Shown: positions 445 through 21,449, counted from the first letter of the stretch. The stretch is DNA of 21,623 nt from a virus (IMGVR_UViG_3300030419_007689:1-21623); one strand, 5' to 3'. The notes: generated by a model not told the origin, from the letters alone. Translations and numbers: made by a program.

Positions 445-482
445 TTGACTTATTTAAGAAATTGAGGTAGAGTATTCTCAAG
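445..482 (+). promoter_or_regulatory. Leaderless promoter module, copy 1
   Basis: The -35 TTGACT (445-450), a 17 bp spacer and the -10 TAGAGT (468-473) are followed by nine bases ending CAAG and then ATG at 483. A start site about seven bases past the -10 would fall at or next to the ATG, so the mRNA should be leaderless. A-tracts just upstream (424-440) look like an UP element. Confidence 0.8.
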
Positions 483-746
483 ATGAACGACTTACTAAAA
501 GAACTCAGCCCAGAAGAAACCGCCAAGCTGCAAGCAGCCATTGAAGCGGGCGCAACTCACGCACGGTTTACCTACGCCGACGGTAGCTTTCACCCTTACC
601 CTATCGAGGAAATCAATCGAGGCATGAACGCGCATCGCCGCCAACGTCTTGGTTTGGAGCTTGTCAAAGTAACCCCCGATACAAAGTTGGCGAGCTTGCC
701 CTTCTGGAATAGCTTTGTGGATGACCGTGAAATTAATCCACATTAA
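483..746 (+). CDS. Small protein, paralogue of the gene at 2099
   Basis: This 87 aa soluble protein belongs to no family I know. It is clearly paralogous to the product of 2099-2386: both carry GATHARFTYAD, SFHPYPIEE, NRGMNAHR and LASLPFWNSFVD at matching positions, with differences concentrated at the N-terminus and the extreme C-terminus. An acidic helical N-terminus (LLKELSPEETAKLQAAIEAG) is followed by a mixed, aromatic-rich domain. The ATG is fixed by the module just upstream (-10 nine bases before it) and by the shared start MND. There is no Shine-Dalgarno. Conservation of the core across two copies argues that it is a real folded protein. Confidence 0.8.
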   Translation: MNDLLKELSPEETAKLQAAIEAGATHARFTYADGSFHPYPIEEINRGMNAHRRQRLGLELVKVTPDTKLASLPFWNSFVDDREINPH

Positions 747-749
747 TCA

Positions 750-787
750 TTGACAACGACACGAATTTTTGATTTAATCTAACCAAG
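750..787 (+). promoter_or_regulatory. Leaderless promoter module, copy 2
   Basis: TTGACA (750-755), 17 bp spacer, TTTAAT (773-778), then CTAACCAAG and ATG at 788. The spacer shares GAATTTTTGA with copy 6 (2061) rather than with copies 1, 3, 4 and 5, so there are two subtypes. Confidence 0.75.
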
Positions 788-1078
788 ATGAACGACATGA
801 AAAAAGACACCTACACACTCTGGATTGACGATGAACTAGTAGCCAGCCGTGACCATACTCGCGAAGGTTATAACGACCTCTTGGCCTATGCTCAAGAGCA
901 TTTGGCACAGACTCCAGAGATTTATTCGAGTCGCGAGGAACAAGCCGTATGGTGGGCCGACATGGACGCTGACGAGTTTCGCGACATGATGCCAACCAGT
1001 GAAGAGTTTTACGCTGATGCAATGGGGCCAGAGCCATACGAGCCAAGTCCCTACGATGGAACTTACTCGGAGATGTAA
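788..1078 (+). CDS. Small acidic protein, 96 aa, unknown
   Basis: Unrecognised soluble protein starting MNDMKKD, strongly acidic over its second half (many Asp, Glu and Met; WWADMDADEFRDMMPTSEEF). The N-terminal part (TYTLWIDDELVASRDHTREG) looks like two short beta strands, and the C-terminal 20 residues (EPYEPSPYDGTYSEM) look disordered. Such an acidic profile is seen in some DNA-mimic or inhibitor proteins of phages, but no specific family can be assigned. The start is set by promoter copy 2; there is no Shine-Dalgarno. A strong terminator lies about 90 bases downstream, so this gene closes a transcription unit. Confidence 0.75.
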   Translation: MNDMKKDTYTLWIDDELVASRDHTREGYNDLLAYAQEHLAQTPEIYSSREEQAVWWADMDADEFRDMMPTSEEFYADAMGPEPYEPSPYDGTYSEM

Positions 1079-1093
1079 ACCGTTAAAACTATC

Positions 1094-1147
1094 ATGACTA
1101 ATCGCATAAGAGATCGGCCCTACGGCCAGCCACAAGGCCCACGTTAG
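1094..1147 (+). CDS. Possible 17-residue peptide in the leader of the terminator
   Basis: ATG at 1094 opens a 17-codon frame, MTNRIRDRPYGQPQGPR, closed by TAG 1145-1147 just ahead of the terminator. The ending QPQGPR recalls TPQGPR in the gene at 195, which may be chance. There is no Shine-Dalgarno and the frame overlaps GC-rich inverted repeats, so the sequence may be structured RNA rather than coding. Confidence 0.2.
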   Translation: MTNRIRDRPYGQPQGPR

Positions 1148-1156
1148 GGCTTGGCC
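1124..1156 (+). other. GC-rich inverted repeat ahead of terminator
   Basis: GGCCAGCC (1124-1131) can pair with GGC-TT-GGCC (1148-1156), enclosing a smaller GCCC/GGGC stem (1137-1140 with 1147-1150) as an alternative fold. Together with the terminator stem just downstream this makes a tandem-hairpin 3' end or a small structured RNA. Confidence 0.4.
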
Positions 1157-1163
1157 AAACTCG

Positions 1164-1189
1164 CCCCCCGCTCTGGCGGGGATTTTTTT
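1164..1189 (+). terminator. Rho-independent terminator
   Basis: CCCCGC (1166-1171), loop TCTG, GCGGGG (1176-1181) form a perfect six-pair GC stem, followed after one A by seven T (1183-1189). This is a textbook intrinsic terminator for the transcript carrying the 788-1078 gene. Confidence 0.9.
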
Positions 1190-1199
1190 GTTTGCATTT

Positions 1200-1232
1200 T
1201 TGGCATGGGACGGGCTGCCCGCCGCGTGCCAA
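1200..1232. repeat. Inverted repeat (hairpin or protein site)
   Basis: TTGGCA (1200-1205) and TGCCAA (1227-1232) are perfect inverted arms enclosing an inner CGGGC/GCCCG repeat around 1211-1221, with a partly mismatched segment between. There is no T-run afterwards, so it is not an intrinsic terminator. It lies directly left of the DnaA-box pair. Confidence 0.55.
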
Positions 1233-1255
1233 GTGTCAAGCATAATCACCGAAAG

Positions 1256-1276
1256 TTATTCACAGCGTGTGCATAA
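1256..1276. promoter_or_regulatory. Inverted pair of DnaA-box matches
   Basis: TTATTCACA (1256-1264, + strand) and TGTGCATAA (1268-1276, i.e. TTATGCACA on the - strand) both match the TTATNCACA DnaA-box consensus and face each other across three bases. An AT-rich stretch and promoter copy 3 follow. The site could bind host DnaA to regulate the 1332 promoter or mark a replication origin. The match is seen; the function is inferred. Confidence 0.5.
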
Positions 1277-1294
1277 GTTTGTTTGTTTTAGGGG

Positions 1295-1331
1295 TTGACT
1301 TTTTTAAGTTTTATGGTATTGTATTAACAAG
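1295..1331 (+). promoter_or_regulatory. Leaderless promoter module, copy 3
   Basis: TTGACT (1295-1300), 16 bp spacer beginning TTTTTAAG, TATTGT (1317-1322), then ATTAACAAG and ATG at 1332. The distance from -10 to ATG is nine bases as in the other copies; only the spacer is one base shorter. Confidence 0.75.
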
Positions 1332-1574
1332 ATGAACGACACGAAGAACAAGACCAGCGAAGAACTGAACGCAGCATTCGAGAACTTTCACAAGGCTGCG
1401 GCCAACGCAATCGAAACGTGCGAGGCATTTATCGGAATGGACATCAACCAAGAGCCACGCGAGGCAACTTTCGTACGCCTATTGAACGAAGGCGAGAAGT
1501 CATCCCTTCCAAAGGGGCAACCTTTCTTTGCTGATGCCAAGGCCGAGTTTGGGGAGACTGTAGACTGTGAATAA
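1332..1574 (+). CDS. Small helical protein, 80 aa, unknown
   Basis: Unrecognised. Begins MNDTKNKTSEELNAAFENFH; the first 35 residues look like one long amphipathic helix (ELNAAFENFHKAAANAIETC), followed by a less regular acidic half ending FGETVDCE. Two cysteines, no membrane segment. Promoter copy 3 fixes the start, and there is no Shine-Dalgarno. Promoter copy 4 starts 17 bases after the stop, so this gene probably has its own transcript. Confidence 0.7.
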   Translation: MNDTKNKTSEELNAAFENFHKAAANAIETCEAFIGMDINQEPREATFVRLLNEGEKSSLPKGQPFFADAKAEFGETVDCE

Positions 1575-1591
1575 CTTTCTGAGATTGGCTA

Positions 1592-1629
1592 TTGACTTTT
1601 TTAAGAATTAACCTTATAGTATTACCAAG
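1592..1629 (+). promoter_or_regulatory. Leaderless promoter module, copy 4
   Basis: TTGACT (1592-1597), 17 bp spacer, TATAGT (1615-1620), ATTACCAAG, then ATG at 1630. It is identical to copy 5 over 49 bases (1592-1640 against 1829-1877). Confidence 0.85.
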
Positions 1630-1809
1630 ATGAACGACATACAAATCACAAACAACGATGCAGCCCTGATCATTGACGGGGTGGCTCACCAAATCAAAAC
1701 TATCAACGAGCAAGATCACGAAGGCCATTGCTGGCTTTACGTTGAACTGCAAGACGGTGGCGAATACCTCTCTTATGATGATGGTGAAACATGGCAGGAG
1801 ATGGAGTAA
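1630..1809 (+). CDS. Small protein, 59 aa, unknown
   Basis: Short gene supported by promoter copy 4 immediately upstream and the shared ATGAACGAC start. It begins MNDIQITNNDAALIIDGVAH and continues with KTINEQDHEGHCWLYVELQD and then GGEYLSYDDGETWQEME. The pattern of alternating hydrophobic and polar residues suggests a small all-beta fold with a beta-hairpin around WLYVELQDGGEYLSY. There is no membrane segment and I know no family. The downstream module (copy 5) begins 19 bases after the stop. Confidence 0.75.
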   Translation: MNDIQITNNDAALIIDGVAHQIKTINEQDHEGHCWLYVELQDGGEYLSYDDGETWQEME

Positions 1810-1828
1810 AAAAAGTTGAAAAAACTAC

Positions 1829-1866
1829 TTGACTTTTTTAAGAATTAACCTTATAGTATTACCAAG
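1829..1866 (+). promoter_or_regulatory. Leaderless promoter module, copy 5
   Basis: TTGACT (1829-1834), 17 bp spacer, TATAGT (1852-1857), ATTACCAAG, ATG at 1867. A-tracts upstream (1808-1824) resemble an UP element. Identical to copy 4 from the -35 into the fourth codon. Confidence 0.85.
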
Positions 1867-2055
1867 ATGAACGACATGAAAAAGATCACCAACTGGACAA
1901 GCTACAAACAAGACCGTTTCAACAAGGCAGAATTCGACGCTGAAATGGCTCGCATTGAAAAGCAAACCTTTATTCTCCAAACCATTACAGCCTTTTGCAT
2001 CGGTGCAAGTGTTGCGCTTGGATTTGTTTTGATTCACCAAATTTATTTCGCATAA
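1867..2055 (+). CDS. Small single-pass membrane protein, 62 aa
   Basis: Begins MNDMKKITNWTSYKQDRFNK. A polar, charged N-terminal half (about residues 1-33) is followed by one strong hydrophobic segment, roughly residues 35-61 (FILQTITAFCIGASVALGFV and onward), ending almost at the C-terminus. This is a tail-anchored topology with the N-terminal domain probably cytoplasmic. Possible roles, by analogy only, include superinfection exclusion or a membrane-targeted early function. Start set by promoter copy 5. Confidence 0.7.
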   Translation: MNDMKKITNWTSYKQDRFNKAEFDAEMARIEKQTFILQTITAFCIGASVALGFVLIHQIYFA

Positions 2056-2060
2056 AAGTA

Positions 2061-2098
2061 TTGACTTCAACCAGAATTTTTGAGACTATAAACCCAAG
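2061..2098 (+). promoter_or_regulatory. Leaderless promoter module, copy 6
   Basis: TTGACT (2061-2066) lies exactly 32 bases before ATG 2099, as in copies 1, 2, 4 and 5. At the aligned -10 position the sequence is GACTAT (2084-2089), a weak match; TATAAA (2087-2092) fits better but needs a 20 bp spacer. The spacer shares GAATTTTTGA with copy 2. Confidence 0.65.
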
Positions 2099-2386
2099 AT
2101 GAACGACATGAAAAACTTACTACAAGAACTCACGCCAGACGATTGGAAGAAGTACACCGACGCAGTGGCAGCGGGTGCAACCCACGCACGGTTTACTTAT
2201 GCCGACCACAGCTTTCATCCTTACCCTATTGAAGAACTTAATCGCGGGATGAACGCACATCGCACGCAAAACCTTGGTTTGTTACTGGTCAAAGTAACCG
2301 ACGAAGGCACTACCGAGATTGCCAGCTTGCCGTTCTGGAATAGCTTTGTAGACGAGAGGGAAATGTTCTACGCTAAAAGAAATTAA
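2099..2386 (+). CDS. Small protein, paralogue of the gene at 483
   Basis: 95 aa, unknown function. It matches the 483-746 product across its core (GATHARFTYAD, SFHPYPIEELNRGMNAHR, LVKVT, IASLPFWNSFVDERE), with a slightly longer start (MNDMKNLLQELTPDDWKK) and a different tail (MFYAKRN). It lies four genes away from its partner, so either the pair arose by duplication and was then separated, or each copy arrived with its own promoter module. Start fixed by the ATGAACGACATG context; no Shine-Dalgarno. Confidence 0.8.
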   Translation: MNDMKNLLQELTPDDWKKYTDAVAAGATHARFTYADHSFHPYPIEELNRGMNAHRTQNLGLLLVKVTDEGTTEIASLPFWNSFVDEREMFYAKRN

Positions 2387-2897: not shown

Positions 2898-3161
2898 ATG
2901 AGCAATTTACATAAACCGCACAATAATCTTCGCCATGTACATAGAAAAAGCTTTAATCAAGGAGCTCACAGCGGCTCTCGCTCTCTTAGATGCGCGTATG
3001 TATCTTCATTGTCAGAGCAAAATCCCGTTATAGGATACCAGCAATCAGAATGGGAGAAAACTTGTAAAAAATATAATGAACAAAATAATTGGGAAACCAA
3101 AGAGGAAAAACATAATCAATTAAAATTATTATTACTAAATATAAATAAAAATAAAAAATAA
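2898..3161 (+). CDS. Small basic protein, 87 aa, unknown
   Basis: Starts at ATG 2898 behind a good Shine-Dalgarno (AGGAG 2887-2891, spacing six). The product (MSNLHKPHNNLRHVHRKSFN...) is His-, Arg- and Asn-rich at the N-terminus and Lys/Asn/Glu-rich at the C-terminus, ending in a charged helix. No family recognised. The gene straddles the composition change: its first half resembles the left block, while the last third is made almost entirely of A/T-rich codons (Lys, Asn, Leu by TTA). The low-complexity tail may be a degenerate extension. Confidence 0.55.
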   Translation: MSNLHKPHNNLRHVHRKSFNQGAHSGSRSLRCAYVSSLSEQNPVIGYQQSEWEKTCKKYNEQNNWETKEEKHNQLKLLLLNINKNKK

Positions 3162-3186
3162 ATAAAAAATACCCCTACCCCTTTAA

Positions 3187-3957
3187 ATGAATAAATACCA
3201 AAAGATATTTATTAATATTAATTCGCTTAAAAAATACGCGGGGCCATCTTTAATTTCGGGGTATCTTGTTATATACTATCTGATGTTTAATTTGGTGGTC
3301 GCTAAACACAATGAAGATGTTCAATCGTGGATAGATAGTGATCCCATTCGTGATAACTGTAACGTATTCTTATATAATAAGGGGGGCGACTTCACGGCAA
3401 AGCATTTGTGTCATTATCAAATTTTACCAAATATAGGAAGGGAATCTCATACGTATTTAACTCATATTGTTGATAATTATAAAAATTTATCTGATATAAC
3501 TATTTTCCTTCAAGGAAACCCTTTTCCTCATTCTTATAACGAATATGGAGAACGTTTGTGGGATTTTATTGAAATTTTAAAAACCGAAAAAAATATTAAA
3601 TATTTACCTTTATATGGCCTCTTAAATGAATTTAAACGCTCTCGACAAATGTACGGATACTATGGGGAATCAACTAGTGACCCAAGAAACGACGTTGCCC
3701 CCGCTGTTCAACGTTTAGCTAAAAGAATTTTCTCTGAAAATGTAATTATCCCTGAAAAACTTTATTTTACAACAGGAGCTCAATTTGCTTGCTCTAAAGA
3801 GGTTATACATTATCATTCAAAATCATTTTATAAAAAATGTTTAGATTTACATGAAGAATCAACTGAAGATGCAGCATGGATGCCTTATGTTATGGAAAGA
3901 TTTTGGCGGTATATATTTCAAGATGATTATTTATTTTATAAAAATATAAGGTTATAA
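3187..3957 (+). CDS. DUF3431-family protein, probable sugar-related enzyme
   Basis: Matches, from memory, the DUF3431 pattern found in bacteria, algae and fungi: LVVAKHNEDVQSW near the start, VFLYNKG, LPNIGRESHTYLTHIVDNY, DITIFLQGNPFPH, then GAQFACSKEVIHYHSKSFY and MERFWRYIF at the end. The family is often found beside glycosyltransferases and may be glycosyltransferase-like, but its reaction is not known to me. The conserved domain begins at the Met encoded at 3283. The 32 residues before it (hydrophobic around GPSLISGYLVIYYL) may be extra, so the real start could be 3283; neither start has a Shine-Dalgarno. It heads the sugar cluster and is followed directly by two HNH genes. Confidence 0.7.
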   Translation: MNKYQKIFININSLKKYAGPSLISGYLVIYYLMFNLVVAKHNEDVQSWIDSDPIRDNCNVFLYNKGGDFTAKHLCHYQILPNIGRESHTYLTHIVDNYKNLSDITIFLQGNPFPHSYNEYGERLWDFIEILKTEKNIKYLPLYGLLNEFKRSRQMYGYYGESTSDPRNDVAPAVQRLAKRIFSENVIIPEKLYFTTGAQFACSKEVIHYHSKSFYKKCLDLHEESTEDAAWMPYVMERFWRYIFQDDYLFYKNIRL

Positions 3958-3958
3958 G

Positions 3959-4507
3959 ATGGGGCATTTGTTAGATAACAAAGAATTATTGGTAAGACTT
4001 TATATCAAAGAAAAAAATACTCTTGTTAAATTATCTAAAAAATACAAAATAGGACGCAAAAAACTTTCAGCCCTATTTAAGAAACATAACATAAAATTAA
4101 GAACCCATCGCGAAGCCATTACCGACCAATATACTCCTTTTAGGTTTTACATGAGTGGATTGAGAAAAAGTAATTACGGCAAACGTCCCAATCTTGCTCG
4201 CTTACAACCTACGGCCAAACAAAAAAAACTTACTCTTGCTCACTTAAAAGAAGTATGGGAAAAGCAAAGAGGAACTTGTCCATATACTAACATTAAATTA
4301 AAATTATTTACTCTCTCTAAAGCTAAGTACCAAAAAGGTGGACTCAAAGGCGATCTGAGAAATGCTTCTCTTGATAGAATAGATTCTTCGAAGCCCTATG
4401 AGATAGGTAATGTTCAATTTGTAGTGTGGCCCATTAATTACGCCAAAAATACCCTATCAGACAAACAAATGAAGAAATTCATGAAGTTGATAAGACAAAG
4501 CTATTGA
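3959..4507 (+). CDS. HNH-type homing endonuclease with N-terminal HTH
   Basis: 182 aa. Residues about 8-50 form a basic helix-turn-helix (TLVKLSKKYKIGRKKLSALF), probably for DNA binding. The C-terminal half carries an HNH-like nuclease core: CPYTNIKL at 107-114, SLDRIDSSKPYEIGNVQFV at 137-155 and an Asn at 160, the usual Cys / D-R-I-D / G-N-x-x / N layout. This matches free-standing phage HNH endonucleases. It starts one base after the upstream stop, with a possible AAGG seven bases before ATG. Together with its neighbour it splits the DUF3431 gene from the sugar genes, suggesting insertion. Confidence 0.8.
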   Translation: MGHLLDNKELLVRLYIKEKNTLVKLSKKYKIGRKKLSALFKKHNIKLRTHREAITDQYTPFRFYMSGLRKSNYGKRPNLARLQPTAKQKKLTLAHLKEVWEKQRGTCPYTNIKLKLFTLSKAKYQKGGLKGDLRNASLDRIDSSKPYEIGNVQFVVWPINYAKNTLSDKQMKKFMKLIRQSY

Positions 4508-4532
4508 CAGAGCACAAATATTTTTTTATAGT
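4504..4532 (+). promoter_or_regulatory. Sigma70-like promoter for leaderless mRNA
   Basis: TTGACA (4504-4509, perfect) overlaps the stop of the upstream gene. After 17 bp comes TATAGT (4527-4532), and ATG follows six bases later at 4539, where transcription would be expected to begin. This gives the second HNH gene its own promoter. Confidence 0.75.
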
Positions 4533-4538
4533 TCTGTA

Positions 4539-5291
4539 ATGGGCAAGAAAGGTTATTCTAATTGGAAAGATTTAGTTTTTCCTGATGGAAGCGTTAGTCC
4601 TGACTATAAAGTTAGATTAATTCCTGATTATCCCTATATAACAGTAAAATCAAAAAAAAGAGTAATAATTAGAGGAGATGGAGTCAAGCAACCTCAAAAA
4701 GAAAAAAATTTAAAACCTCAATTCTATAAAAATAAAAAACGAGAAAATCCCCCTACATATATTAGATTTTCACTTTATAAAAAATTTAAAAAAGTACATT
4801 TATTCGTTCACAAAATAATTAGACATACTTTCCCTAATAAACTAAGAAATTCTGAAAATTTAAAAAAATATCCTAATATAGATCATATCGACCAAAATCC
4901 TTTAAATAATAAAATAAACAATTTAAGGTGTGTTACTAATAGCGAAAACCAACAAAACATCTCTCCCAAAAAGGGAAAAAATTTAATTGGAGTTCATTTT
5001 CATAAGTGGGTAGCCCAAAACAAAAAAACCAAAAATGTTTGGGCGGCATTCGCCACCTTTGAGCAAAAAAAGATACAAAAACATAAAATGTTTCCAACTC
5101 AAGTAGAAGCGGCAGAACAACACGATTTGTGGACCATTGATTACTATAAAAATAAAAATTTTAAACCTCTTTTAAATTATCCAGAAAAAATGCCAAAATA
5201 CGAAAAAATGTTAAAAGGTATGAAAAAAATTAGAAAACTTAAGAAGAGACCTTTGGTTTATGACTTCAATACGTTTTCGCTTATTAATTAA
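4539..5291 (+). CDS. HNH homing endonuclease with AP2-like DNA-binding domain
   Basis: 250 aa. The HNH core is visible as VHKIIRHTF (89-98), then IDHIDQNPLNNKINNLR (114-130) and NSENQQN (134-140), the standard arrangement of phage HNH_3-type endonucleases. Residues about 148-205 (IGVHFHKWVAQ... VWAAFATFEQ... TQVEAAEQHD) resemble the AP2-like domain often found after such cores. The N-terminal 70 residues are Lys-rich. It has its own TTGACA/TATAGT promoter and no Shine-Dalgarno; the mRNA is probably leaderless. A selfish element by family knowledge; the target site is not visible here. Confidence 0.85.
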   Translation: MGKKGYSNWKDLVFPDGSVSPDYKVRLIPDYPYITVKSKKRVIIRGDGVKQPQKEKNLKPQFYKNKKRENPPTYIRFSLYKKFKKVHLFVHKIIRHTFPNKLRNSENLKKYPNIDHIDQNPLNNKINNLRCVTNSENQQNISPKKGKNLIGVHFHKWVAQNKKTKNVWAAFATFEQKKIQKHKMFPTQVEAAEQHDLWTIDYYKNKNFKPLLNYPEKMPKYEKMLKGMKKIRKLKKRPLVYDFNTFSLIN

Positions 5292-5300
5292 AATAATTTT

Positions 5301-6173
5301 ATGAATCATTACATTATGTTACATAGTGCAATGGGAGACTCTCTTGTTGCTTTTCGACATATAATTAAATTTTCTGAAGAAAATAAAGAAAAGAAAATCA
5401 ATGTAATATATAATCAAAATATTGATCCGTTCATGAAGAATTGGACATGGCCTGATAATATTACATTAATGCCTTTGGAGCAAACCGTTCATGATTTCGA
5501 TAATCTTTATCCTTTTCCTTATAAATGTGATAATCAAGAAATCGTAGAAGCTTTTCATAAAAAACAAGAAAACGCTCATGATCTCAGGCCATTTTTTGTC
5601 CAAAGAGATCATTTGGTCGTAGAAAATAATTTAAAAGATATTTTACCAGATAGAGCCCCTTTTGTGCATAGTATAGGTTCGTATGTTGCGTTACAGCCTA
5701 TTTCTACTATACATCAAGCTTATTCGATAAGGTGGATCGATGAGGAAATGGAAACTTATGAAAAATTTTTAATTAATCTTTTGGAGCATATTCATATGCT
5801 TACACCTCTTTCGGTTGTTGCCGTGGGAACTCATGATGATGCTGCTAAGTTTCCTCATTTTAATAGTATTAAATCTAACAATAGATATTTTAATTTAATG
5901 GGACATCTAAATATTGAAGATTATTGTGATACTATCCAGCATTCTTCTGCTGTTTTTGGCTTGAGTAGCTCTGCTATTAATTTAGGTAATTATGTTTTTG
6001 GAAAACCTGTTGTCTCTTGGAGGTTAAGACCGCCTTGGGGAGATTTATTTGATAATTTTTTAGATGATAATTCTAAAGCTATTCATAGACCTTGGGAGCA
6101 AGAAATGAATTTTTATAGTGACTTTTTAGAAAAGGGAGTTCTGAATGAAAAAAAACAAAATATCAATAGTTAG
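5301..6173 (+). CDS. GT9-like glycosyltransferase
   Basis: 290 aa. N-terminal HSAMGDSLVAFRHIIKF resembles the opening glycine/acceptor loop of heptosyltransferase-type (GT9, GT-B fold) enzymes. The second half has VALQPIST, then VVAVGTHDDAAKFP, then INLGNYVFGKPVVSW after AVFGLSSSA, matching the donor-binding domain of GT9 proteins, in which a conserved stretch reads like D-S/G-L-x-H-x-A/G. Here SSSAINLGN replaces the usual Asp/His site, so activity is not certain. It probably transfers a sugar built by the neighbouring genes. No Shine-Dalgarno (AAATAATTTT before ATG). The next gene begins 29 bases before this stop. Confidence 0.65.
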   Translation: MNHYIMLHSAMGDSLVAFRHIIKFSEENKEKKINVIYNQNIDPFMKNWTWPDNITLMPLEQTVHDFDNLYPFPYKCDNQEIVEAFHKKQENAHDLRPFFVQRDHLVVENNLKDILPDRAPFVHSIGSYVALQPISTIHQAYSIRWIDEEMETYEKFLINLLEHIHMLTPLSVVAVGTHDDAAKFPHFNSIKSNNRYFNLMGHLNIEDYCDTIQHSSAVFGLSSSAINLGNYVFGKPVVSWRLRPPWGDLFDNFLDDNSKAIHRPWEQEMNFYSDFLEKGVLNEKKQNINS

Positions 6174-6573
6174 CGGCGGTTTTGACCCATTACACGTAGG
6201 TCACATAGAGCTCTTTAATAACGCTAGAGAGCTCTCTGACGCTCTTTTTGTTATCTTGAATAGTGATAGGTTCCTTTTTGAAAAAAAGTCTAGGGTGTTC
6301 ATGCCTTTCGAGGAAAGAAAGATAATGGTAGAAAGCGTGAAGGGTGTTGATATGGTAGTGCCTTGTATTGATGATGATAGTACGGTTTGTAAAACTTTAG
6401 AGAAATTATCTTCCCTCACCGAAGCTGTAGACGCTCAGTTGCTATTTTGCAATGGAGGAGACAGAACCAGTGGTGAAAACACTCCAGAACATAAAATATG
6501 TCAAAAATTAAATATAGAGACTGTTTACGGTTTAGGAGATAAAATTCAAAGCAGTAGCTGGTTAACCAAATGA
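6145..6573 (+). CDS. Cytidylyltransferase-like nucleotidyltransferase
   Basis: 142 aa, the normal length for single-domain class I nucleotidyltransferases (glycerol-3-phosphate cytidylyltransferase / HldE-C type). GGFDPLHVGHIELF contains the HxGH motif at residues 17-20; NSDRF and FEERKIMVESVKGVD follow, and NGGDR near 104-108 and SSSWLTK at the end match the second nucleotide-binding motif. It couples a phosphorylated sugar or alcohol to CTP (or ATP); the substrate cannot be read. The start is behind a real Shine-Dalgarno (GGGAG 6134-6138, spacing six) inside the preceding gene, unusual for this AT-rich region. It overlaps rmlA by four bases (ATGA). Confidence 0.8.
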   Translation: MKKNKISIVSGGFDPLHVGHIELFNNARELSDALFVILNSDRFLFEKKSRVFMPFEERKIMVESVKGVDMVVPCIDDDSTVCKTLEKLSSLTEAVDAQLLFCNGGDRTSGENTPEHKICQKLNIETVYGLGDKIQSSSWLTK

Positions 6574-7427
6574 AAGGCATTATTCTGGTAGGAGGTAAAG
6601 GTACAAGGGTGTACCCTATGACATTAGGCGTACCCAAGAGCTTGCTTCCTATTTATGACAAACCATTAATATATTATTCTTTATCTACTTTTTTAGAGAA
6701 TGGTATTAATGATATTTGTGTTATTTCTACGCCTGAGCATTTACCAGCTTTTAAGCTAACTCTTGGTGATGGTTCCCGCTTTGGGGCAAAAATATCATAT
6801 AAAGAGCAAACGGAGCCCAAAGGTATAGCGGAAGCTTTTACGATTGCAAAAAATTTCATTAAACAGGATAATGTTTCACTTTTGCTGGGTGACAACCTTT
6901 TTTATGGAAGTTCTGTATTTTCTAGAGCTTTTAAAAACTTTTCTTCAGGAGGTTCAATTTTCGCGTATGAAGTAAATGACCCCGAAAGATATGGCGTTAT
7001 ACAATTAAGTAAATCGGGCGTCCCGCTTTCACTCGAAGAAAAACCACAAAATCCAAAAACGAATTTAGCTATTCCTGGTCTTTATATATTTGATAAATCT
7101 GTTGTTAAAGTTGCAACGTCTTTAAAGCCTTCTGCGCGAGGAGAATTGGAAATTACAGATGTTATTCAGTTTTACCTCAACCAAAAAAATTTGAAAGTTT
7201 ATAAAATCAATCGCGGTTGCGCTTGGTTAGATGCGGGCACATGTCAAAGCATGAATGAAGCAGGTGAATACGTAAGAGTCATCGAGCAGCGACAAGGAAT
7301 AAAAATAGGTTGTCCTGAAGAAGCAGCGTTTAAAGCTGGCTTTTTATCCAAAAAATCCTTAGAACAAGAAATATTGAAAATGCCTAATGTAGAATATAAA
7401 ACTTATTTAAATAAATTATTAAAATGA
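6570..7427 (+). CDS. rmlA: Glucose-1-phosphate thymidylyltransferase (RmlA)
   Basis: 285 aa, near the normal RmlA length. It makes dTDP-glucose from glucose-1-phosphate and dTTP, the first step of dTDP-deoxysugar synthesis. Seen: the signature GGKGTRVYPMT (residues 8-18; usual form GGSGTRLYPLT), PKSLLPIYDKPLIYY, the metal-binding LLLGDNLFYG, VNDPERYGVI, LEEKP, GLYIFD and AWLDAGTCQSM. All core motifs are present; the Thr/His usual in WLDTGTH is replaced by Ala/Cys, a mild change. It starts inside the stop of the preceding gene without a Shine-Dalgarno and overlaps the next gene by four bases, indicating translational coupling. Confidence 0.93.
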   Translation: MKGIILVGGKGTRVYPMTLGVPKSLLPIYDKPLIYYSLSTFLENGINDICVISTPEHLPAFKLTLGDGSRFGAKISYKEQTEPKGIAEAFTIAKNFIKQDNVSLLLGDNLFYGSSVFSRAFKNFSSGGSIFAYEVNDPERYGVIQLSKSGVPLSLEEKPQNPKTNLAIPGLYIFDKSVVKVATSLKPSARGELEITDVIQFYLNQKNLKVYKINRGCAWLDAGTCQSMNEAGEYVRVIEQRQGIKIGCPEEAAFKAGFLSKKSLEQEILKMPNVEYKTYLNKLLK

Positions 7428-8287
7428 TTGGAATATTAGGAGCATCAGGTTATATAGGTCAAGCTTTCGTTCAAGAGCTTATTGATCAAAATACATCATT
7501 TAGAGAATTTAGCAGAAAAAAAGATAATTATTATTCTTTAGAATCCTTAATAAATATTATTCATGATAATGGTTTATCTGTTTTGATTAATTGTGCGGGT
7601 TATACTGGTAAGCCTAATGTAGACGTATGTGAAAGTAATAAAGAAGAATGTTATAAAGCTAATGTTGAATTAGCTAAAATTATTTCTACAGCGTGCGCTT
7701 TAACAAATGTTACTTTGTTACATATCTCTTCTGGCTGTATTTACACTGGCGACAATAAAGGGTTAGGTTTTACGGAGGAAGACGACCCAAACTTCCATTC
7801 ATTTTCTGAAATAACAGGTAGTTTTTATAGTCATACCAAAACGATAGCCGAATCAATTGTCAAATCTACATGGGAAAAATCTTACATAGCTAGATTAAGA
7901 ATTCCTTTTGATGGTGTAGGTGGACCTCGTAACTATTTAACCAAGTTGCAGAAATATGAAAAACTATTAGAAGCTGATAATTCTATTAGTCATAGAGGTG
8001 ATTTTGTAAAAGCATGTATTCATTTATTAAAAAATAAAGCTGATTTTGGGATATATAATATAGTTAACACTGAACCCGTTACCACATCGGAAGTAGCTAA
8101 ACTTTTGAAGAGCGAAGGGTTATTAGAGGATTATACCCTTTTAAATGAAGAGGAGTTTTATAAGGATGTAAAACCTAAAGCGCCTAGGTCTAATTGCGTT
8201 TTAAATAATAATAAATTATTAGATACTGGATTCAAGATGAGAAATTCCAAAGACGCCCTTATTGAAAGCATACGAGAATTAAAATGA
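7424..8287 (+). CDS. NRS/ER-like dTDP-4-keto-6-deoxyglucose epimerase-reductase
   Basis: 287 aa short-chain dehydrogenase/reductase. GASGYIG (residues 6-12) binds NAD(P)H; ISSGCIYTG includes Cys105, and FYSHTK supplies the catalytic Tyr135 and Lys139. NCAGYTGKPNVDVCESNKE, the GLGFTEEDDPNF stretch, GSFYSHTK and GGPRNYLTKL resemble, from memory, plant NRS/ER and mimivirus L780, which carry out both 3,5-epimerisation and 4-reduction to give nucleotide-rhamnose. It could thus replace RmlC plus RmlD. A plain RmlD-type reductase is the alternative. Overlaps both neighbours by four bases (ATGA). Confidence 0.78.
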   Translation: MIGILGASGYIGQAFVQELIDQNTSFREFSRKKDNYYSLESLINIIHDNGLSVLINCAGYTGKPNVDVCESNKEECYKANVELAKIISTACALTNVTLLHISSGCIYTGDNKGLGFTEEDDPNFHSFSEITGSFYSHTKTIAESIVKSTWEKSYIARLRIPFDGVGGPRNYLTKLQKYEKLLEADNSISHRGDFVKACIHLLKNKADFGIYNIVNTEPVTTSEVAKLLKSEGLLEDYTLLNEEEFYKDVKPKAPRSNCVLNNNKLLDTGFKMRNSKDALIESIRELK

Positions 8288-8691
8288 AGAAAATAATTTT
8301 TACTAATGGGTGTTTTGATATTCTTCATAGAATGCATGTAGAATTATTTCGATTTTGCAAATCCAAAGGTGATAAAGTAATAGTAGGTTTAAATAGTGAC
8401 TCTAGTATTAAAAGACTTAAAGGGGAGCAACGGCCCATCTTCAACCAAGACGATAGAAAGTTTCTGCTAGAATCCTTAGATTGCGTAGACGAAGTTATTA
8501 TCTTTGATGAAGATACTCCGTATGAATTGATAAGAAAAATAAAACCTGATTACATAGTTAAGGGCGGCGATTATAAACCTGAAGATATAGCGGGAAATAC
8601 TATAACTAAAGTAATTATCTTTAATTATAATGAAAACTATTCTACAACTAGAGCATTGCAATCGCTTCAAAAGGCTAGTATAAATAAATAA
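8284..8691 (+). CDS. HldE-C/RfaE2-like adenylyltransferase, altered HxGH
   Basis: 135 aa, a single nucleotidyltransferase domain like the C-terminal part of HldE (heptose-1-phosphate adenylyltransferase). Seen: TNGCFDILHRMHVELF, GLNSDSSIKRLKG, RPIFNQDDRKFLLESLDCVD, DYIVKGGDY and STTR, in family order. The nucleotide-binding HxGH reads HRMH (residues 15-18): Met replaces the near-invariant Gly, by codon ATG 8332-8334. Activity may be reduced or changed. No heptose kinase or isomerase accompanies it, so the true substrate may not be heptose. Coupled to the upstream reductase by ATGA; three bases separate it from rmlB. Confidence 0.8.
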   Translation: MKKIIFTNGCFDILHRMHVELFRFCKSKGDKVIVGLNSDSSIKRLKGEQRPIFNQDDRKFLLESLDCVDEVIIFDEDTPYELIRKIKPDYIVKGGDYKPEDIAGNTITKVIIFNYNENYSTTRALQSLQKASINK

Positions 8692-8694
8692 CAT

Positions 8695-9636
8695 ATGAAA
8701 TTGTTAGTAACAGGCGGGGCAGGTTTTATAGGCTCTAATTTTATTAACTATATTTTAGAAAAATGTAAAGAAGTTGAAAGCGTATTAAATGTAGATTGCT
8801 TGTCTTACGCTGCTAACGAAAAAAATTGCCAAAAATTTCTTTCAAATCCAAAGTATTCTTTTAGACATTTAGATATCACCAGAAACCCTCAAGTACAGGA
8901 TGTCTTTAAAAGATATACTCCTACTCATGTTGTTCACTTCGCAGCTGAAAGTCATGTAGATAATTCTATAAAAAATCCTAATATTTTTTTAGAAACAAAT
9001 GTTATGGGAACCCACAACCTACTTAAAGCCGCGCTTTCTAGTAAGGTAAAAAGGTTTCATCACATTTCAACAGATGAGGTTTATGGGAGCCTTGGCCAAA
9101 CTGGAAAATTTAAAGAAACCACTCCTTACGACCCTCGTAACCCTTATTCCGCTTCCAAGGCTGCTGCCGATCATTTAGTAAGAACTTTTCATCATACATT
9201 TAGCTTACCTATTACTATTTCCAATTGTTCTAATAATTATGGACCTAATCAGCATGGAGAAAAATTTATACCAACTATCTTAAAGAATTTAATAAAGGGG
9301 AAAAAAATTCCTGTTTATGGACAGGGTGCAAATATCCGTGATTGGATTTACGTAGAAGATCATTGCTCGGCGGTTTGGAAAATTTTAACCGAAGGTGAAG
9401 TAGGGGAAACTTATAATGTTGGTGCGAATTGTGAAAAAACTAATTTAGAAATAATAAATGCAATTTGCTCAATAATGAAAATTGAGCCCAGTTCCTATAT
9501 AGAATTCGTAAAAGATAGATTAGGACACGATTTCAGATACGCTATTAATGCTTCTAAAATACGCTCTAAGCTCTCTTGGAAACCTTCTTATACCTTTAAG
9601 CGCGGTCTTATTAAAACTATAGCTTCCTATGCATAA
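8695..9636 (+). CDS. rmlB: dTDP-glucose 4,6-dehydratase (RmlB)
   Basis: 313 aa, somewhat shorter than the usual 330-360. Converts dTDP-glucose to dTDP-4-keto-6-deoxyglucose with bound NAD+. Seen: TGGAGFIG (Rossmann), HFAAESHVDNSI, STDEVYGS (catalytic Thr-Asp-Glu), YSASKAAADH (Tyr-x-x-x-Lys), NNYGPNQHGEKFIPT, then GQGANIRDWIYVEDH and GETYNVGAN. Every catalytic signature is intact, so an active enzyme is likely. It acts between RmlA and the epimerase-reductase upstream. TATAAATAA lies just before the start but is part of the preceding reading frame. It overlaps the following oxygenase by eight bases. Confidence 0.94.
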   Translation: MKLLVTGGAGFIGSNFINYILEKCKEVESVLNVDCLSYAANEKNCQKFLSNPKYSFRHLDITRNPQVQDVFKRYTPTHVVHFAAESHVDNSIKNPNIFLETNVMGTHNLLKAALSSKVKRFHHISTDEVYGSLGQTGKFKETTPYDPRNPYSASKAAADHLVRTFHHTFSLPITISNCSNNYGPNQHGEKFIPTILKNLIKGKKIPVYGQGANIRDWIYVEDHCSAVWKILTEGEVGETYNVGANCEKTNLEIINAICSIMKIEPSSYIEFVKDRLGHDFRYAINASKIRSKLSWKPSYTFKRGLIKTIASYA

Positions 9637-10594
9637 TACATCACATCCTTCCATAAAATTTTATTTAGATAACTTCCTTCAAAAAGAAAATGTATATAAA
9701 TTAAAAGGGTGGATTTTTCACGCTGAAGAACGTATTCAAAAAGTCAGTGTTAAATACAACCAAAGTGAGACCGCGACTTCTACTTTTCATGATAGAAATG
9801 ACGTAGTTGATGTTTACGTGTCTCAATTTCCAAAGATAGATAAATCCGTAGGTTTTGAAATCTCTTTTGAAACTAATGAAGATTTTAAAGACGTAAAGTT
9901 TTCTTGTGCCGTTAATAACGGGGGCGGGGACATATTATACGACGTAGTAACTGTTCCCAATCCTTTTTATAAACCTGAACAACCCGAAGGGGAAATAGGG
10001 AATATTCACCCTAGTATTATCGCTGTAGATGATTTTTATGCTCACCCTGATGAAGTTAGAGAATACGCTCTTGGTTTAGATTTCCAACATAACAAAGAGT
10101 ATCACAAAGGTCAACGCACTAAGCAAAGAACTTTCTTTAAGGGCACTCGTGAATTTTTAGAAGATACTTTAAAGAAAAAAATAACCAGTTGGGATAATCA
10201 ACCTCATAATGGAGTTTTTCAATTCTGTACGGCAGAAGATCAATTAGTTTATCATACCGACAGTCAAACGTATGCTGCCGTAGTTTTTTTAACCCCCGAT
10301 GCTCCTGCGGAGTGTGGAACTAGTTTTTTTAAACATAAGAGTAATAATTTAAGGAAATACCCTACAGCTGAAGATTGTAAGAAATTTAATAAATCAATGG
10401 ACGAACTTTATTGGGATATGTTTAAGGGTAATTTTTATGATAAAACGCCGTGGGAGTTGGTAGATGTAGTAGGTAATGTTTACAATAGAATGGCGATATG
10501 GGATGCAAAATTAGTTCATGCTGCCACCCAATACTTTGGTGGTACAAAAGAAAACTCAAGATTATTTCATATGTTTTTCTTCGATGCTGAGTAA
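9629..10594 (+). CDS. 2OG-Fe(II) oxygenase with N-terminal beta-sandwich domain
   Basis: 321 aa, two parts. Residues about 8-110 (LKGWIFHAEERIQKVSVKYN... FHDRNDVVDVYVSQFP... VGFEISFE) follow the GW / R-x-D-V / GF pattern of an immunoglobulin-like domain known from N-termini of some glycosyltransferases. Residues about 126-321 form an oxygenase: iron ligands His209-x-Asp211 (YHTDSQTYA) and His297 (KLVHAAT), with Arg311 (ENSRLF) for 2-oxoglutarate, resembling DUF6445-type proteins. It likely hydroxylates a protein or sugar; the substrate is unknown. The start overlaps rmlB by eight bases, placing it at the end of the sugar operon. Confidence 0.8.
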   Translation: MHNTSHPSIKFYLDNFLQKENVYKLKGWIFHAEERIQKVSVKYNQSETATSTFHDRNDVVDVYVSQFPKIDKSVGFEISFETNEDFKDVKFSCAVNNGGGDILYDVVTVPNPFYKPEQPEGEIGNIHPSIIAVDDFYAHPDEVREYALGLDFQHNKEYHKGQRTKQRTFFKGTREFLEDTLKKKITSWDNQPHNGVFQFCTAEDQLVYHTDSQTYAAVVFLTPDAPAECGTSFFKHKSNNLRKYPTAEDCKKFNKSMDELYWDMFKGNFYDKTPWELVDVVGNVYNRMAIWDAKLVHAATQYFGGTKENSRLFHMFFFDAE

Positions 10595-10600
10595 TTTAAG

Positions 10601-10608
10601 TGTAATAT
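10601..10608 (+). promoter_or_regulatory. Candidate phage promoter motif TGTAATAT (before phoH)
   Basis: TGTAATAT begins 13 bases before ATG 10614, in one of the few non-coding gaps of this region and preceded by AAG. The same heptamer TGTAATA recurs before 11655 and 17998. A late promoter for the phage sigma factor is a guess; no -35 is visible. Confidence 0.3.
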
Positions 10609-10613
10609 TAAAT

Positions 10614-11390
10614 ATGGCAAATGCTAAGAAAGCTGGTCGTTCCAGAACCAGCCTAAAGAAGGAAGTGGCTGAAGAAATTAAAGATTCTTTGGTCGATAAC
10701 TATTTTCCTGAAAACCCCATTAAAAGGCAAATTAAATTAAAACAATTTCCTTGGACGGAAAAACAAAAAGATTTTTTTAAAGTTGCTTTGCATCCCGATA
10801 CAAAAATTGTTTTAGTTAATGGGCCAGCAGGGACTTCTAAAACTCTCTTGGCGACTTATTGTGCTCTTCAGTTACTTAATATGAAAGTTATAGAAGATAT
10901 TATGTATCTTCGTTCTGCTGTGGAATCCTCTGATAGAAGTTTAGGGTTTTTACCAGGATCCGCAGAAGAAAAACTGAGGTTTTTTAATTTACCATTTTTA
11001 GATAAGTTAGAAGAACTTTTAGAGAGTACTCGCGTAGAAAAATTAGAGCAGGAAGGTAGAATAAGTATGTTTCCAGTTAATTTCGCAAGAGGAATGAATT
11101 GGAGAGCTAAATGTATTATTTTAGATGAAGCTCAAAATTCTACTGTTAAAGAAATTACTACTGTTTTAACAAGATTGGGTGAAGGAAGTAAATGCTTTAT
11201 TTTAGCTGATCCTATGCAAACAGATATCAAACAAGGTGAAAAGCAACACGGGTTTGAAAAAATGTTTAAACTTTTTTCTGACCAAGAAAGTATAGCTCAA
11301 GGTATTAACACTTTTACGTTTGATGAAGAAGACGTAATGAGGTCTGAACTTGTTAAATTCTTAACAAAGAAATTAAAATTAATTTGTTAA
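10614..11390 (+). CDS. phoH: PhoH-like ATPase
   Basis: 258 aa from ATG 10614. The reading frame is open further upstream to 10518, but those residues overlap the oxygenase gene, and MANAKKAGRSRTSLKKEV is the natural start. P-loop NTPase of the PhoH family, common in phages: Walker A GPAGTSKT (70-77), RSAVESSDRSLGFLPG, Walker B IILDEAQN (168-175), TRLGEGSKCFILADPMQTD. The basic N-terminal 40 residues precede the helicase-like core. It probably acts in nucleic-acid or phosphate metabolism; the exact role is unknown even in well-studied phages. Its stop overlaps that of a small opposite-strand gene (shared TTAA). Confidence 0.92.
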   Translation: MANAKKAGRSRTSLKKEVAEEIKDSLVDNYFPENPIKRQIKLKQFPWTEKQKDFFKVALHPDTKIVLVNGPAGTSKTLLATYCALQLLNMKVIEDIMYLRSAVESSDRSLGFLPGSAEEKLRFFNLPFLDKLEELLESTRVEKLEQEGRISMFPVNFARGMNWRAKCIILDEAQNSTVKEITTVLTRLGEGSKCFILADPMQTDIKQGEKQHGFEKMFKLFSDQESIAQGINTFTFDEEDVMRSELVKFLTKKLKLIC

Positions 11391-11557
11391 TCTAAATTTT
11401 CTTTTATTACTTTATAACAATCATGAGCTAAACGATTAATACTTTTTGCGTTTTCTTTTATTTCGTCATTAGAGTGAGAGCAGTTTTCAATAGTTAAATC
11501 TCCGATTTTTTTTAATTTTTCTAAAAGACCATTTTTTTGAGAATACTTCTCTTTCAT
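11387..11557 (-). CDS. Small antisense-strand helical protein, 56 aa
   Basis: The complement of 11557-11387 reads as an open frame from ATG to TAA, 56 residues beginning MKEKYSQKNGLLEKLKKIGD and continuing LTIENCSHSNDEIKENAKSI and then NRLAHDCYKVIKENLD. It looks like a helical, charged protein, not junk. The frame stays open upstream of the ATG but without an obvious earlier start. It would be the only - strand gene in the window and converges on phoH with a four-base stop overlap. The + strand has no long frame here, leaving a 264-base gap that this gene mostly fills. Function unknown; it might be a small regulator. Confidence 0.55.
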   Translation of the reverse strand: MKEKYSQKNGLLEKLKKIGDLTIENCSHSNDEIKENAKSINRLAHDCYKVIKENLD

Positions 11558-11641
11558 ACAGCATTTTACACCAAAAGAGATTTGAGTTACACTCTTTTTT
11601 GTAAAAATATTAATTTTTATTTTGTTTTTTATTTTTTTTAC

Positions 11642-11649
11642 TGTAATAT
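11642..11649 (+). promoter_or_regulatory. Candidate phage promoter motif TGTAATAT (before 11655)
   Basis: TGTAATAT starts 13 bases before ATG 11655, the same distance as before phoH. The surroundings are T-rich (11580-11640). Confidence 0.3.
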
Positions 11650-11654
11650 AGTTT

Positions 11655-12011
11655 ATGAGTAATTTAAAGGTTTATTGCCAAAGTTGTGGTTTTGCACATG
11701 CTTATACTTTACAAAAGCCCAACTTTTGCCAAAGTTGCGGAGCTTCACTAGGCAGCGTAAAAAAAGGGTCCCCTTCGGAACTTCAAGTAGAAACTGAAGA
11801 TAACCCCGTTTCCTTTTCAAGTTTGAATGCTTTAGAATTTGGACTAGAAACCTTCGATTCACCTGCTCCGACTTTAGGAAGTATTATGGAGCAACACTCC
11901 TCTTCGCCCCCTAGAAAAGAGCCTGAAAGAGAAAGAAATCCACTTTCACCAGAGGAAACCTTAGACCAACTCAAGAAAGAGAGTTCTGCTATTAGGCCCA
12001 AATCCTCTTAA
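11655..12011 (+). CDS. Zinc-ribbon protein, 118 aa
   Basis: The N-terminus carries two Cys pairs, YCQSCGF (8-14) and FCQSCGAS (24-31), a compact zinc ribbon. The rest is a Ser/Pro/Glu-rich, probably disordered tail (SSSPPRKEPERERNPLSPEE and on). There is no catalytic motif. It lies four bases before the sigma-factor gene, so the two are probably co-expressed, and a role as a transcription co-factor or RNA polymerase-binding adaptor is plausible but only inferred from position. No Shine-Dalgarno; the start follows a TGTAATAT motif. Confidence 0.75.
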   Translation: MSNLKVYCQSCGFAHAYTLQKPNFCQSCGASLGSVKKGSPSELQVETEDNPVSFSSLNALEFGLETFDSPAPTLGSIMEQHSSSPPRKEPERERNPLSPEETLDQLKKESSAIRPKSS

Positions 12012-12015
12012 TAAA

Positions 12016-12699
12016 TTGAGCCATAACTCTAAAAAATTTGAAGAGTGTATTGACATTATCGATGAAGAAATACGTAAAAGAAAATCGAAATGGAATTTAC
12101 AATCTTTGGCGTGGATGGATTTTGATGACGTTTCTCAAATAATAAAAATACATATCTTTAAGAAATGGGCACTTTATGATCCGCAGCAGCCTTTGCGGCC
12201 TTGGCTAAATAGAATAATTTCTAATCAGCTTAAAAATTTAGTAAGGAATAATTATGGAAATTTTACACGACCATGCTTAAGGTGCGCTGCCGCCGAAGAG
12301 CCAGACGGTTGCATTTTATTTGAGAAGCAGTGTATTAGTTGTCCACTTTATGAATATTGGAATAAAAACAAAAAAGATGCCCAAAATTTAAAGATACCTG
12401 TTTCTATGGATTATCATTCTATAGAAATCAAGAATTTAACGTATGACAATAATAGCTTTAATTCTAATAAACTAAAGCTTCATGAGGTTATGATGTCAAA
12501 ACTTAAGCCTTTAGAAAGGTCAGTGTATAAATTAATATATATGGAAAATAAGTCTGATGAAGAAGTCGCTAAAATAATGAATTATAAGAGTTCCGAAGAA
12601 GGAAGGCCTCCTGGATACAAGCATATCAAAAATATCAAAAAGGCCATTATAGAAAAAGTTAAAAAAGTTTTAGAAAAAGGGGAGGTAGATATAATATGA
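12016..12699 (+). CDS. Phage sigma70-family factor with cysteine insertion
   Basis: 227 aa, ECF/gp55-like. Region 2-like: WMDFDDVSQIIKIHIFKKWA (33-52) and PLRPWLNRIISNQLKNLVRN (59-78). Region 4-like: LKPLERSVYKLIYMENKSDE (163-182) and EVAKIMNY plus a basic recognition helix near YKHIKNIKKA. Between them C87xxC90, C99 and C106xxC109 form a probable zinc-binding insertion. It likely redirects host RNA polymerase to middle or late genes. The start is TTG at 12016; the next Met is residue 34, inside the conserved region, so TTG is preferred. It overlaps the next gene by four bases. Confidence 0.8.
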   Translation: MSHNSKKFEECIDIIDEEIRKRKSKWNLQSLAWMDFDDVSQIIKIHIFKKWALYDPQQPLRPWLNRIISNQLKNLVRNNYGNFTRPCLRCAAAEEPDGCILFEKQCISCPLYEYWNKNKKDAQNLKIPVSMDYHSIEIKNLTYDNNSFNSNKLKLHEVMMSKLKPLERSVYKLIYMENKSDEEVAKIMNYKSSEEGRPPGYKHIKNIKKAIIEKVKKVLEKGEVDII

Positions 12700-13781: not shown

Positions 13782-13782
13782 A

Positions 13783-14520
13783 ATGATTTTACATGATAAA
13801 AAAATAATTTTCATACATATCCCCCGCACGGGAGGTACGAGTGTAGAGGAGTATTTTCAATTTAAACATCAACACGGATGGAAACCCGATACGGCTCAAC
13901 ATTTAACACTGAAAGAATACAGTGATCATTATGACGTAGAAGATTATTTTAAATTTACAATTGTAAGGAATCCTTGGGATAGATTAGTTTCTTGGTATTT
14001 ATGGTCTCATGCTGAAGTAATTTATTTTCAATACCTTGCTGAAACAGGCCGCTTTAGTACACGGGGGGAATCTGCAAGAAATAAAGCTTGGAATAAAGGA
14101 AGGGATTTAATCAGTGATAAAAAAAATACTTTTACTGATCCGAAATTATTTTTAAAATTTAAAACCGCTTTTTCCAGTTTCATTGAGAGGCTTAATGATC
14201 AAGAAGAATTAGTTTATGATCCGTACTTCGACAATAATGCGATTTTGAGTAATCGCTTAAGCGGTAGATGGATAATGCCTCAAGTGAGATGGATTGAAAT
14301 AAATAATAAAATTAATTTAGATTATATTTGTAAGTTTGAAAAATTAAAAAACAACTTCAATACAGTATTAAGAAAAAATAAATTAAAAAATACCACTCTA
14401 GAAAGAAAAGGTAAAATCCATCATAAGCCTAATTATAGAAAATTTTACACCAAGAAAAATCAAGAAATCATAGGCCGTCTTTATAAAGAAGATGTAAAAA
14501 AATTTAAATATGAGTTTTAA
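13783..14520 (+). CDS. Carbohydrate sulfotransferase-like protein
   Basis: 245 aa. The 5'-phosphosulfate loop is clear: IIFIHIPRTGGTSVEEYF (8-25), and the 3'-phosphate motif is TIVRNPWDRLVSWYLW, as in the Sulfotransfer_2 family of sugar sulfotransferases using PAPS. The C-terminus YKEDVKKFKYEF is also typical. It would add sulfate to a glycan, fitting with the sugar genes to the left. There is no PAPS synthesis gene in view, so host PAPS must be used. One base separates it from the upstream stop, and the downstream ERCC4 gene starts 11 bases before this stop. No Shine-Dalgarno. Confidence 0.85.
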   Translation: MILHDKKIIFIHIPRTGGTSVEEYFQFKHQHGWKPDTAQHLTLKEYSDHYDVEDYFKFTIVRNPWDRLVSWYLWSHAEVIYFQYLAETGRFSTRGESARNKAWNKGRDLISDKKNTFTDPKLFLKFKTAFSSFIERLNDQEELVYDPYFDNNAILSNRLSGRWIMPQVRWIEINNKINLDYICKFEKLKNNFNTVLRKNKLKNTTLERKGKIHHKPNYRKFYTKKNQEIIGRLYKEDVKKFKYEF

Positions 14521-15466: not shown

Positions 15467-15472
15467 AATTTT

Positions 15473-16141: not shown

Positions 16142-16143
16142 AA

Positions 16144-17976: not shown

Positions 17977-17979
17977 AAG

Positions 17980-17987
17980 TGTAATAA
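17980..17987 (+). promoter_or_regulatory. Candidate phage promoter motif TGTAATAA (before portal)
   Basis: AAGTGTAATAA, in the 21-base gap before the portal gene, repeats the AAGTGTAATA seen before phoH. It begins 18 bases before ATG. Confidence 0.3.
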
Positions 17988-17997
17988 TTTATTAATT

Positions 17998-20025: not shown

Positions 20026-20026
20026 T

Positions 20027-21208: not shown

Positions 21209-21216
21209 AAAATATT

Positions 21217-21435: not shown

Positions 21436-21449
21436 TTTCTTAAACGCTA

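Follow-up and report, generated by a model that had tools for sequence, protein, structure and literature searches.

Six repeated modules precede a series of small genes

The window analysed here, a 21,623 nt stretch of viral DNA (IMGVR_UViG_3300030419_007689:1-21623), has a series of six small genes between positions 445 and 2386, each of which begins with a repeated module in which a predicted promoter runs directly into the start codon and first few codons of the gene. A first examination by a model, made from the sequence alone and referred to here as the sequence-only reading, had described six such copies with -35 hexamers at 445, 750, 1295, 1592, 1829 and 2061; all six were confirmed, with ATG codons at 483, 788, 1332, 1630, 1867 and 2099 respectively. 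The -35 hexamer is separated from the ATG by 32 bases in five modules and by 31 bases in that at 1295, in agreement with the claimed 31-32 bases. The accompanying claim, that the -10 ends nine bases before the ATG in every copy, holds for the four modules that have good TANNNT hexamers at this distance (TAGAGT, TATTGT and, in two cases, TATAGT). The modules at 750 and 2061 conform by alignment only, the corresponding hexamers, TTTAAT and GACTAT, being weak -10s, both directly preceded by TGA and so of the extended (TGn) type.

445-491, + strand: module 1; -35 TTGACT at 445-450, -10 TAGAGT at 468-473, predicted +1 at A480
Leader and start of module 1, + strand: AAG leader, then ATGAACGAC at 483-491
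750-796, + strand: module 2; -35 TTGACA at 750-755, weak extended -10 TGA-TTTAAT at 773-778, CAAG, ATGAACGAC at 788-796
1295-1340, + strand: module 3; -35 at 1295-1300, -10 TATTGT at 1317-1322, CAAG, ATGAACGAC at 1332-1340
1592-1640, + strand: module 4; -35 at 1592-1597, -10 TATAGT at 1615-1620, CAAG, ATGAACGACAT; same as module 5
1829-1877, + strand: module 5; -35 at 1829-1834, -10 TATAGT at 1852-1857, CAAG, ATGAACGACAT
2061-2107, + strand: module 6; -35 TTGACT at 2061-2066, weak extended -10 TGA-GACTAT at 2084-2089, CAAG, ATGAACGAC at 2099-2107
4504-4541, + strand: seventh leaderless-type start, of an HNH endonuclease gene; TTGACA..TATAGT, 6 bases, ATG at 4539; no MND head

The exact sequence CAAGATGAACGAC has six copies in the window, those of the modules, and is found nowhere else in it, whilst the pattern TTGAC-N24..33-AAGATG occurs six times in positions 1-2900, against 0.03 times per first-order Markov shuffle. 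Modules 4 and 5 are identical over around 49 bases, from TTGACT to the end of ATGAACGACAT, with unrelated flanks and genes. An in-frame stop codon lies 15-27 bases upstream of each of the six ATGs, hence no longer reading frame starts upstream of the promoter. The small genes are tightly packed, with only 3-19 bases between the previous stop codon and the -35 in five of the six cases.

483-746, + strand: gene 1, 87 aa, MNDLLKELSPEE..THARFTYADG..; paralogue of gene 6
788-1078, + strand: gene 2, acidic product of 96 aa; relatives in G011 (MNEKKPTYTLW) and, judged by eye, in G010 and G008
1332-1574, + strand: gene 3, 80 aa, ..CEAFIGMDIN..; relatives in G008 and G019
1630-1809, + strand: gene 4, 59 aa
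1867-2055, + strand: gene 5, likely membrane protein of 62 aa, ..NWTSYK..
2099-2386, + strand: gene 6, 95 aa, ..THARFTYADH..; paralogue of gene 1 behind a different module

No convincing family was found in Pfam or PHROGs for the small proteins encoded by these six genes. The paralogous genes 1 and 6 are real genes, since the differences between them (15, 12 and 36 at codon positions 1, 2 and 3) fall mostly at third positions. Relatives of gene 5 in G001, G007, G008, G012 and G019 all have leaderless-type promoters, mostly differing in sequence. The gene upstream of module 1, gene 195, has a TATACT 24 bases before its ATG (region 165-195), and so a normal short leader would be expected; L035 has this type of region (GGATGTCCCACCCC..TATACT) too, as does L024, there with 6 bases.

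Predicted position of the transcription start

The same architecture is present in around 15 related uncultivated phages, identified in IMG/VR through pattern and protein searches. A scan of 436 kb from 16 genomes, requiring TTGAC(A/T), a spacer of 16-18 bases and TANNNT, with an ATG no more than 60 bases downstream that opens a frame of at least 35 codons, found 116 promoters, of which 97 had the ATG 5-9 bases past the -10 and 19 had it at 10-60 bases. The distances peak at 6 (34 cases), 8 (24) and 9 (26). Reversed sequences gave a single match, at a distance of 47, and none at 6-9. The automated scan misses module 6, owing to its weak -10, and takes module 2 as having TAATCT at a distance of 7. 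Contigs found by protein similarity only (G005, G006 and G007) had 22 close and 8 distant ATGs. Amongst control stretches, close ATGs accounted for one of two cases in T4, none of two in Microcystis phage LMM01 and none of two in unrelated viral contigs. In phiYS40, a phage with known leaderless messages, they made up six of 11 in the same scan.

Bacterial transcription usually begins seven bases after the -10, so the predicted leaders would be 0, 2 (AG) or 3 (AAG) bases long. The base at this position is an A in all 27 copies with a distance of nine, usually following a C, and in 89% of those with a distance of eight. In G010, either the trinucleotide is itself ATG (ATGATGAAC, an ATGATG form) or, in the 6-base form, the ATG falls exactly at base 7, the expected +1. 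None of the six module genes has a Shine-Dalgarno (SD) sequence, which is present at the neighbouring genes at 2492 and 2898. The clade-wide peak in distances, the A at base 7, the missing SD sequences and the 6-base and ATGATG variants together argue for the proposal that the modules produce leaderless or near-leaderless messages.

Evidence for exchange of modules between genes

The extent of the sequence common to unrelated genes suggests that promoter and first codons travel together. From the -35 through to codons 3-7, unrelated genes in one genome can have 45-57 identical bases; in G019, around 57 bases including ATGAGAGACACAAYGAAAACA are common to three unrelated genes, all of which start with the head MRDT(M/T)KT. 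Across 114 modules, the spacer identity between non-homologous genes was 0.46 within genomes and 0.37 between them, and near-identical spacers (identity of at least 0.8) made up 4.9% of pairs within genomes but 0.5% between genomes. Permutation of the genome labels never produced a difference larger than 0.032, where 0.096 was observed. In such near-identical pairs, sequence further than about 20 bases ahead of the -35 is no more alike than background, and identity declines after codons 4-6.

The shared head differs by genome, being MND, MKNE or MRDTMKT, and can be seen to change on a single gene: the CEAF gene (gene 3) starts with MNDTKNK in the window, MKNEETT in G008 and MRDTTKT in G019. 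The proposal in the sequence-only reading that unrelated small genes in the window acquire a common N-terminus is supported, but MND is only this genome's version of it. It had also proposed searching related phages for the module, and the relatives show different genes attached and promoter types exchanged: in L034, the promoter type of module 6 drives another gene, whilst the THARFTYAD gene there has the type of modules 4 and 5. The same gene provides an example of the whole unit being present or absent. In L025 it directly follows the gene 195 relative, without a module, and starts MENLLSELSP; in the window, module 1 (445-491) lies between gene 195 and the THARFTYAD gene, and the coding match to L025 resumes at codon 4. 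A further promoter, 6 bases away from an ATGATG, precedes the gene in L024. The opposite pattern, of conservation ending at the ATG and genes that are not interchanged, was sought in the relatives and not found. The sequences thus show where the modules lie, that cassettes are shared and that they are exchanged, and the identical cassettes on non-homologous genes, the genome-specific heads and the pair of loci with and without the unit support the view that promoter and first codons form a portable unit.

DnaA-box-like sites upstream of the modules

Many of the modules are preceded by sequences resembling DnaA boxes. Within 80 bases upstream of the -35, 37 strict boxes (TTATNCACA) were found, in 33 of 114 modules, where 1.9 would be expected, and half of all strict boxes in these loci fall upstream of modules. 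The starts of forward boxes, relative to the -35, are at -27/-26 (17 cases), -17 (5), -36/-35 (2) and -15 (1), following a helical period, whilst reverse boxes cluster at -14/-13 (6). The box consensus is AAAGTTATTCACA, with a conserved AAAG flank. Boxes in the window precede only modules 3 and 4, and further examples are found in L063, L202, L205 and L207.

1256-1276, + strand: DnaA-box-like pair, TTATTCACA at 1256-1264 and TGTGCATAA at 1268-1276, lying 39 and 27 bases ahead of the module 3 -35
1566-1574, + strand: DnaA-box-like site, TGTGAATAA, then CTTT (to 1578), lying 26 bases ahead of the module 4 -35 and overlapping the stop codon of gene 3

The box is not part of the copied unit, because module 5 shares the promoter of module 4 but has no box. 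These sites may bind host DnaA, or a phage mimic of it, and activate the promoters, which would add to the explanation of the modules given below rather than replace it. The excess of boxes, their phased positions and the conserved flank are consistent with such a role, and DnaA is known to activate transcription, including at ori-lambda (PMC8203912). Set against this, 71% of modules have no box, and the AAAG flank, together with the strong preference for T at the variable position, may point to a different protein. Nor was a phage-encoded DnaA DNA-binding domain (PF08299) found in 15 clade records, which leaves host DnaA or another protein as the candidate. We consider activation by DnaA to have somewhat less than an even chance of being correct.

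A proposed mechanism and its alternatives

Each module can be seen as a complete expression head, in which a sigma70-type promoter would be fused to the start codon. Messages made by host RNA polymerase would begin 0-3 bases ahead of the AUG; those of the window are expected to start 5'-AAG-AUG-AAC-GAC, without a ribosome site, and to be translated by a leaderless or 5'-end-dependent route. Such modules would serve small genes that are promoted individually, probably early in infection. The segment from the -35 to codons 3-7 appears to be copied between genes of one genome, by recombination or gene conversion, such that unrelated genes would come to share both a promoter and an N-terminal head characteristic of that genome. 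That the modules are portable promoter-plus-start units, giving leaderless or near-leaderless messages and copied between genes, seems probable from the comparisons above, and from it we infer the transcript 5' ends, the early timing, the mode of translation and the route of recombination. A more elaborate version, in which a widespread phage clade would run much of its small-gene programme from self-copying cassettes that overwrite the N-termini of unrelated genes by gene conversion, yield leaderless messages and in many cases are switched on by host DnaA through the helically phased boxes, is put forward only tentatively, as less likely than not.

Several observations weigh against the portable-unit explanation. 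Modules 2 and 6 have weak -10s. Because several of the contigs were themselves collected by the module pattern, the ratio of close to distant ATGs across the clade is inflated. SD use is low throughout the window (4/30 genes) and low overall (17% against 8% in shuffles), so the missing SD sequences are not in themselves special to modules. Translation of messages with 2-3-base leaders is expected to be less efficient than that of messages with a 5'-terminal AUG (PMC9031893). Finally, a genome-specific regulator, rather than copying, could explain part of the similarity between spacers.

This last point extends to the possibility that promoter and head were brought to resemble one another by convergent selection, for a genome-specific regulator or for efficient initiation, without any copying. 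Codons 2-6 of module genes are indeed rich in A (53%, compared with 42% in other long frames) and poor in T (12%, compared with 27%), and leaderless initiation is reported to be helped by CA repeats following the start codon (PMC9031893), which the A-rich composition fits. Convergence nevertheless seems rather unlikely, as the identity takes in the letters of the spacer and whole codons (the 57 bases of G019), is genome-specific and is abrupt at both edges, and the THARFTYAD locus shows the entire unit both present and absent. The sequence-only reading had suggested that conservation into codons 2-4 either aids initiation or marks a recombination joint. The letters of ATGAACGAC are not fixed across the clade, and are therefore mainly cargo of the copied unit. 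The conservation is best read as copying by descent with a general A-rich, T-poor preference, and not as one fixed initiation signal.

Alternatively, these might be ordinary promoters drawn close to the ATG by genome compaction, with normal leaders originating at more distant promoters and CAAGATGAACGAC acting as a protein-binding site or translation signal. The tight packing of the genes is what this would predict, and L013 and L020 contain CAAGATGAACGA with no promoter directly ahead of it. Neither the A at base 7 nor the exact peaks at distances of 6, 8 and 9 would be expected from compaction, however, and the relatives maintain the spacing but not the letters of CAAGATGAACGAC; the six modules also have no SD sequences. 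We regard this explanation as distinctly improbable. It is very unlikely that the modules are cassettes of the T4 PeSL kind (promoter plus stem-loop terminator), as despite the promoters being repeated between small, plastic genes of shuffled content, with early timing inferred, the terminator half is missing: only 6/113 copies have a G+C-rich hairpin in the 60 bases ahead of the -35, and the gaps in the window are often too short to hold one.

Comparison with known systems

Leaderless genes of the TANNNT type are common in several bacterial groups, including Deinococcus and Actinobacteria (PMC3160421, PMC12340547). The phage modules resemble them in having a -10 around 6-9 bases before the start and no SD sequence, with a leaderless or near-leaderless message expected. 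However, the bacterial examples are chromosomal single-gene promoters, whereas in the phages a full -35 and -10 plus several codons are repeated and swapped, often with a 2-3-base leader. Thermus phage phiYS40 makes leaderless middle and late messages, according to a review (PMC3594737), and is similar in being a phage with a class of such messages, predicted in the present case, and close ATGs. There, the genes concerned are the middle and late ones of a single thermophile phage, and in the text consulted no shared N-terminal head or swapping is described. The PeSLs of T4-type phages are outlined, in the text citing them, as mobile composite promoter-terminator cassettes (Arbiol 2010; Comeau 2014, cited in PMC4503421); on that description, both systems tie a repeated promoter cassette to the shuffling of small genes in plastic regions, but the present modules rarely have a stem-loop, and reach into the coding sequence instead. 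The DnaA-box-like sites recall the stimulation of ori-lambda transcription by DnaA (PMC8203912), in that the host replication initiator is predicted to act near a phage promoter. In lambda, such sites lie downstream of pO (PMC3985674), whilst here they are upstream, phased and associated with many promoters, with binding predicted.

A limited literature search found no report of a cassette joining promoter, start codon and head. Precedents exist for the separate ingredients, in bacterial leaderless genes, phiYS40 and the T4 PeSLs, but the combination appears to be new. If correct, the unit of regulatory exchange in phages would include the translation start and first codons, and such promoters could be grafted onto any reading frame without a ribosome site, which would explain how shuffled small genes stay expressed. 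Dozens of parallel genes would then offer a test of leaderless translation during infection. N-terminal residues that such proteins have in common would represent cassette cargo and not homology, and the phased DnaA-like sites would link the small-gene programme to the replication state of the host.

Related phages and genome context

The portal protein is 52-62% identical to that of the window in six of seven relatives tested, and belongs to a larger family represented in more than 580 contigs. Searches of cultured phages with one small gene, with the module region and with the portal found no relatives; the terminase and PhoH give only distant ones. The module pattern had 18 matches in GTDB genomes, all of which were rejected as chance-like by their spacing and translation. 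A search for the host using the portal found nothing in two phyla (398 and 395 genomes), but had no positive control and so is uninformative. Ribosomal protein S21 (PF01165), considered as a helper of leaderless translation, does not provide a general explanation, being encoded in only one of 18 records (L209 / G005:C1:25800-25955).

The G+C content of the window falls from around 45% in the small genes (1-2900) to 30% in the late and sugar genes (3000-21623). That this step, at about 2.9 kb, marks a chimeric contig is disfavoured, because the 136-kb record G010 (L035) has relatives of gene 195 and of the small genes in one neighbourhood with sugar genes like those of the window. On the minus strand of L035, near 7165, 6210, 5210 and 4230, a repeated palindrome, GGGACCGGTCCCG-TTGAGACTNAGTCTCA, lies between small genes, possibly representing terminators or protein sites. 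Elsewhere in the window, a sigma-like protein (12016-12699; phrog_36, phrog_1740), the listed start of which is a TTG without an SD sequence, may direct late transcription. A DUF3431 protein (3187-3957) is encoded beside sugar-nucleotide genes (6145-9636), and a protein at 20027-21196 with a GAGGGTGAG signature appears, by eye, to be FtsZ/tubulin-like, with a weak match to phrog_17961.

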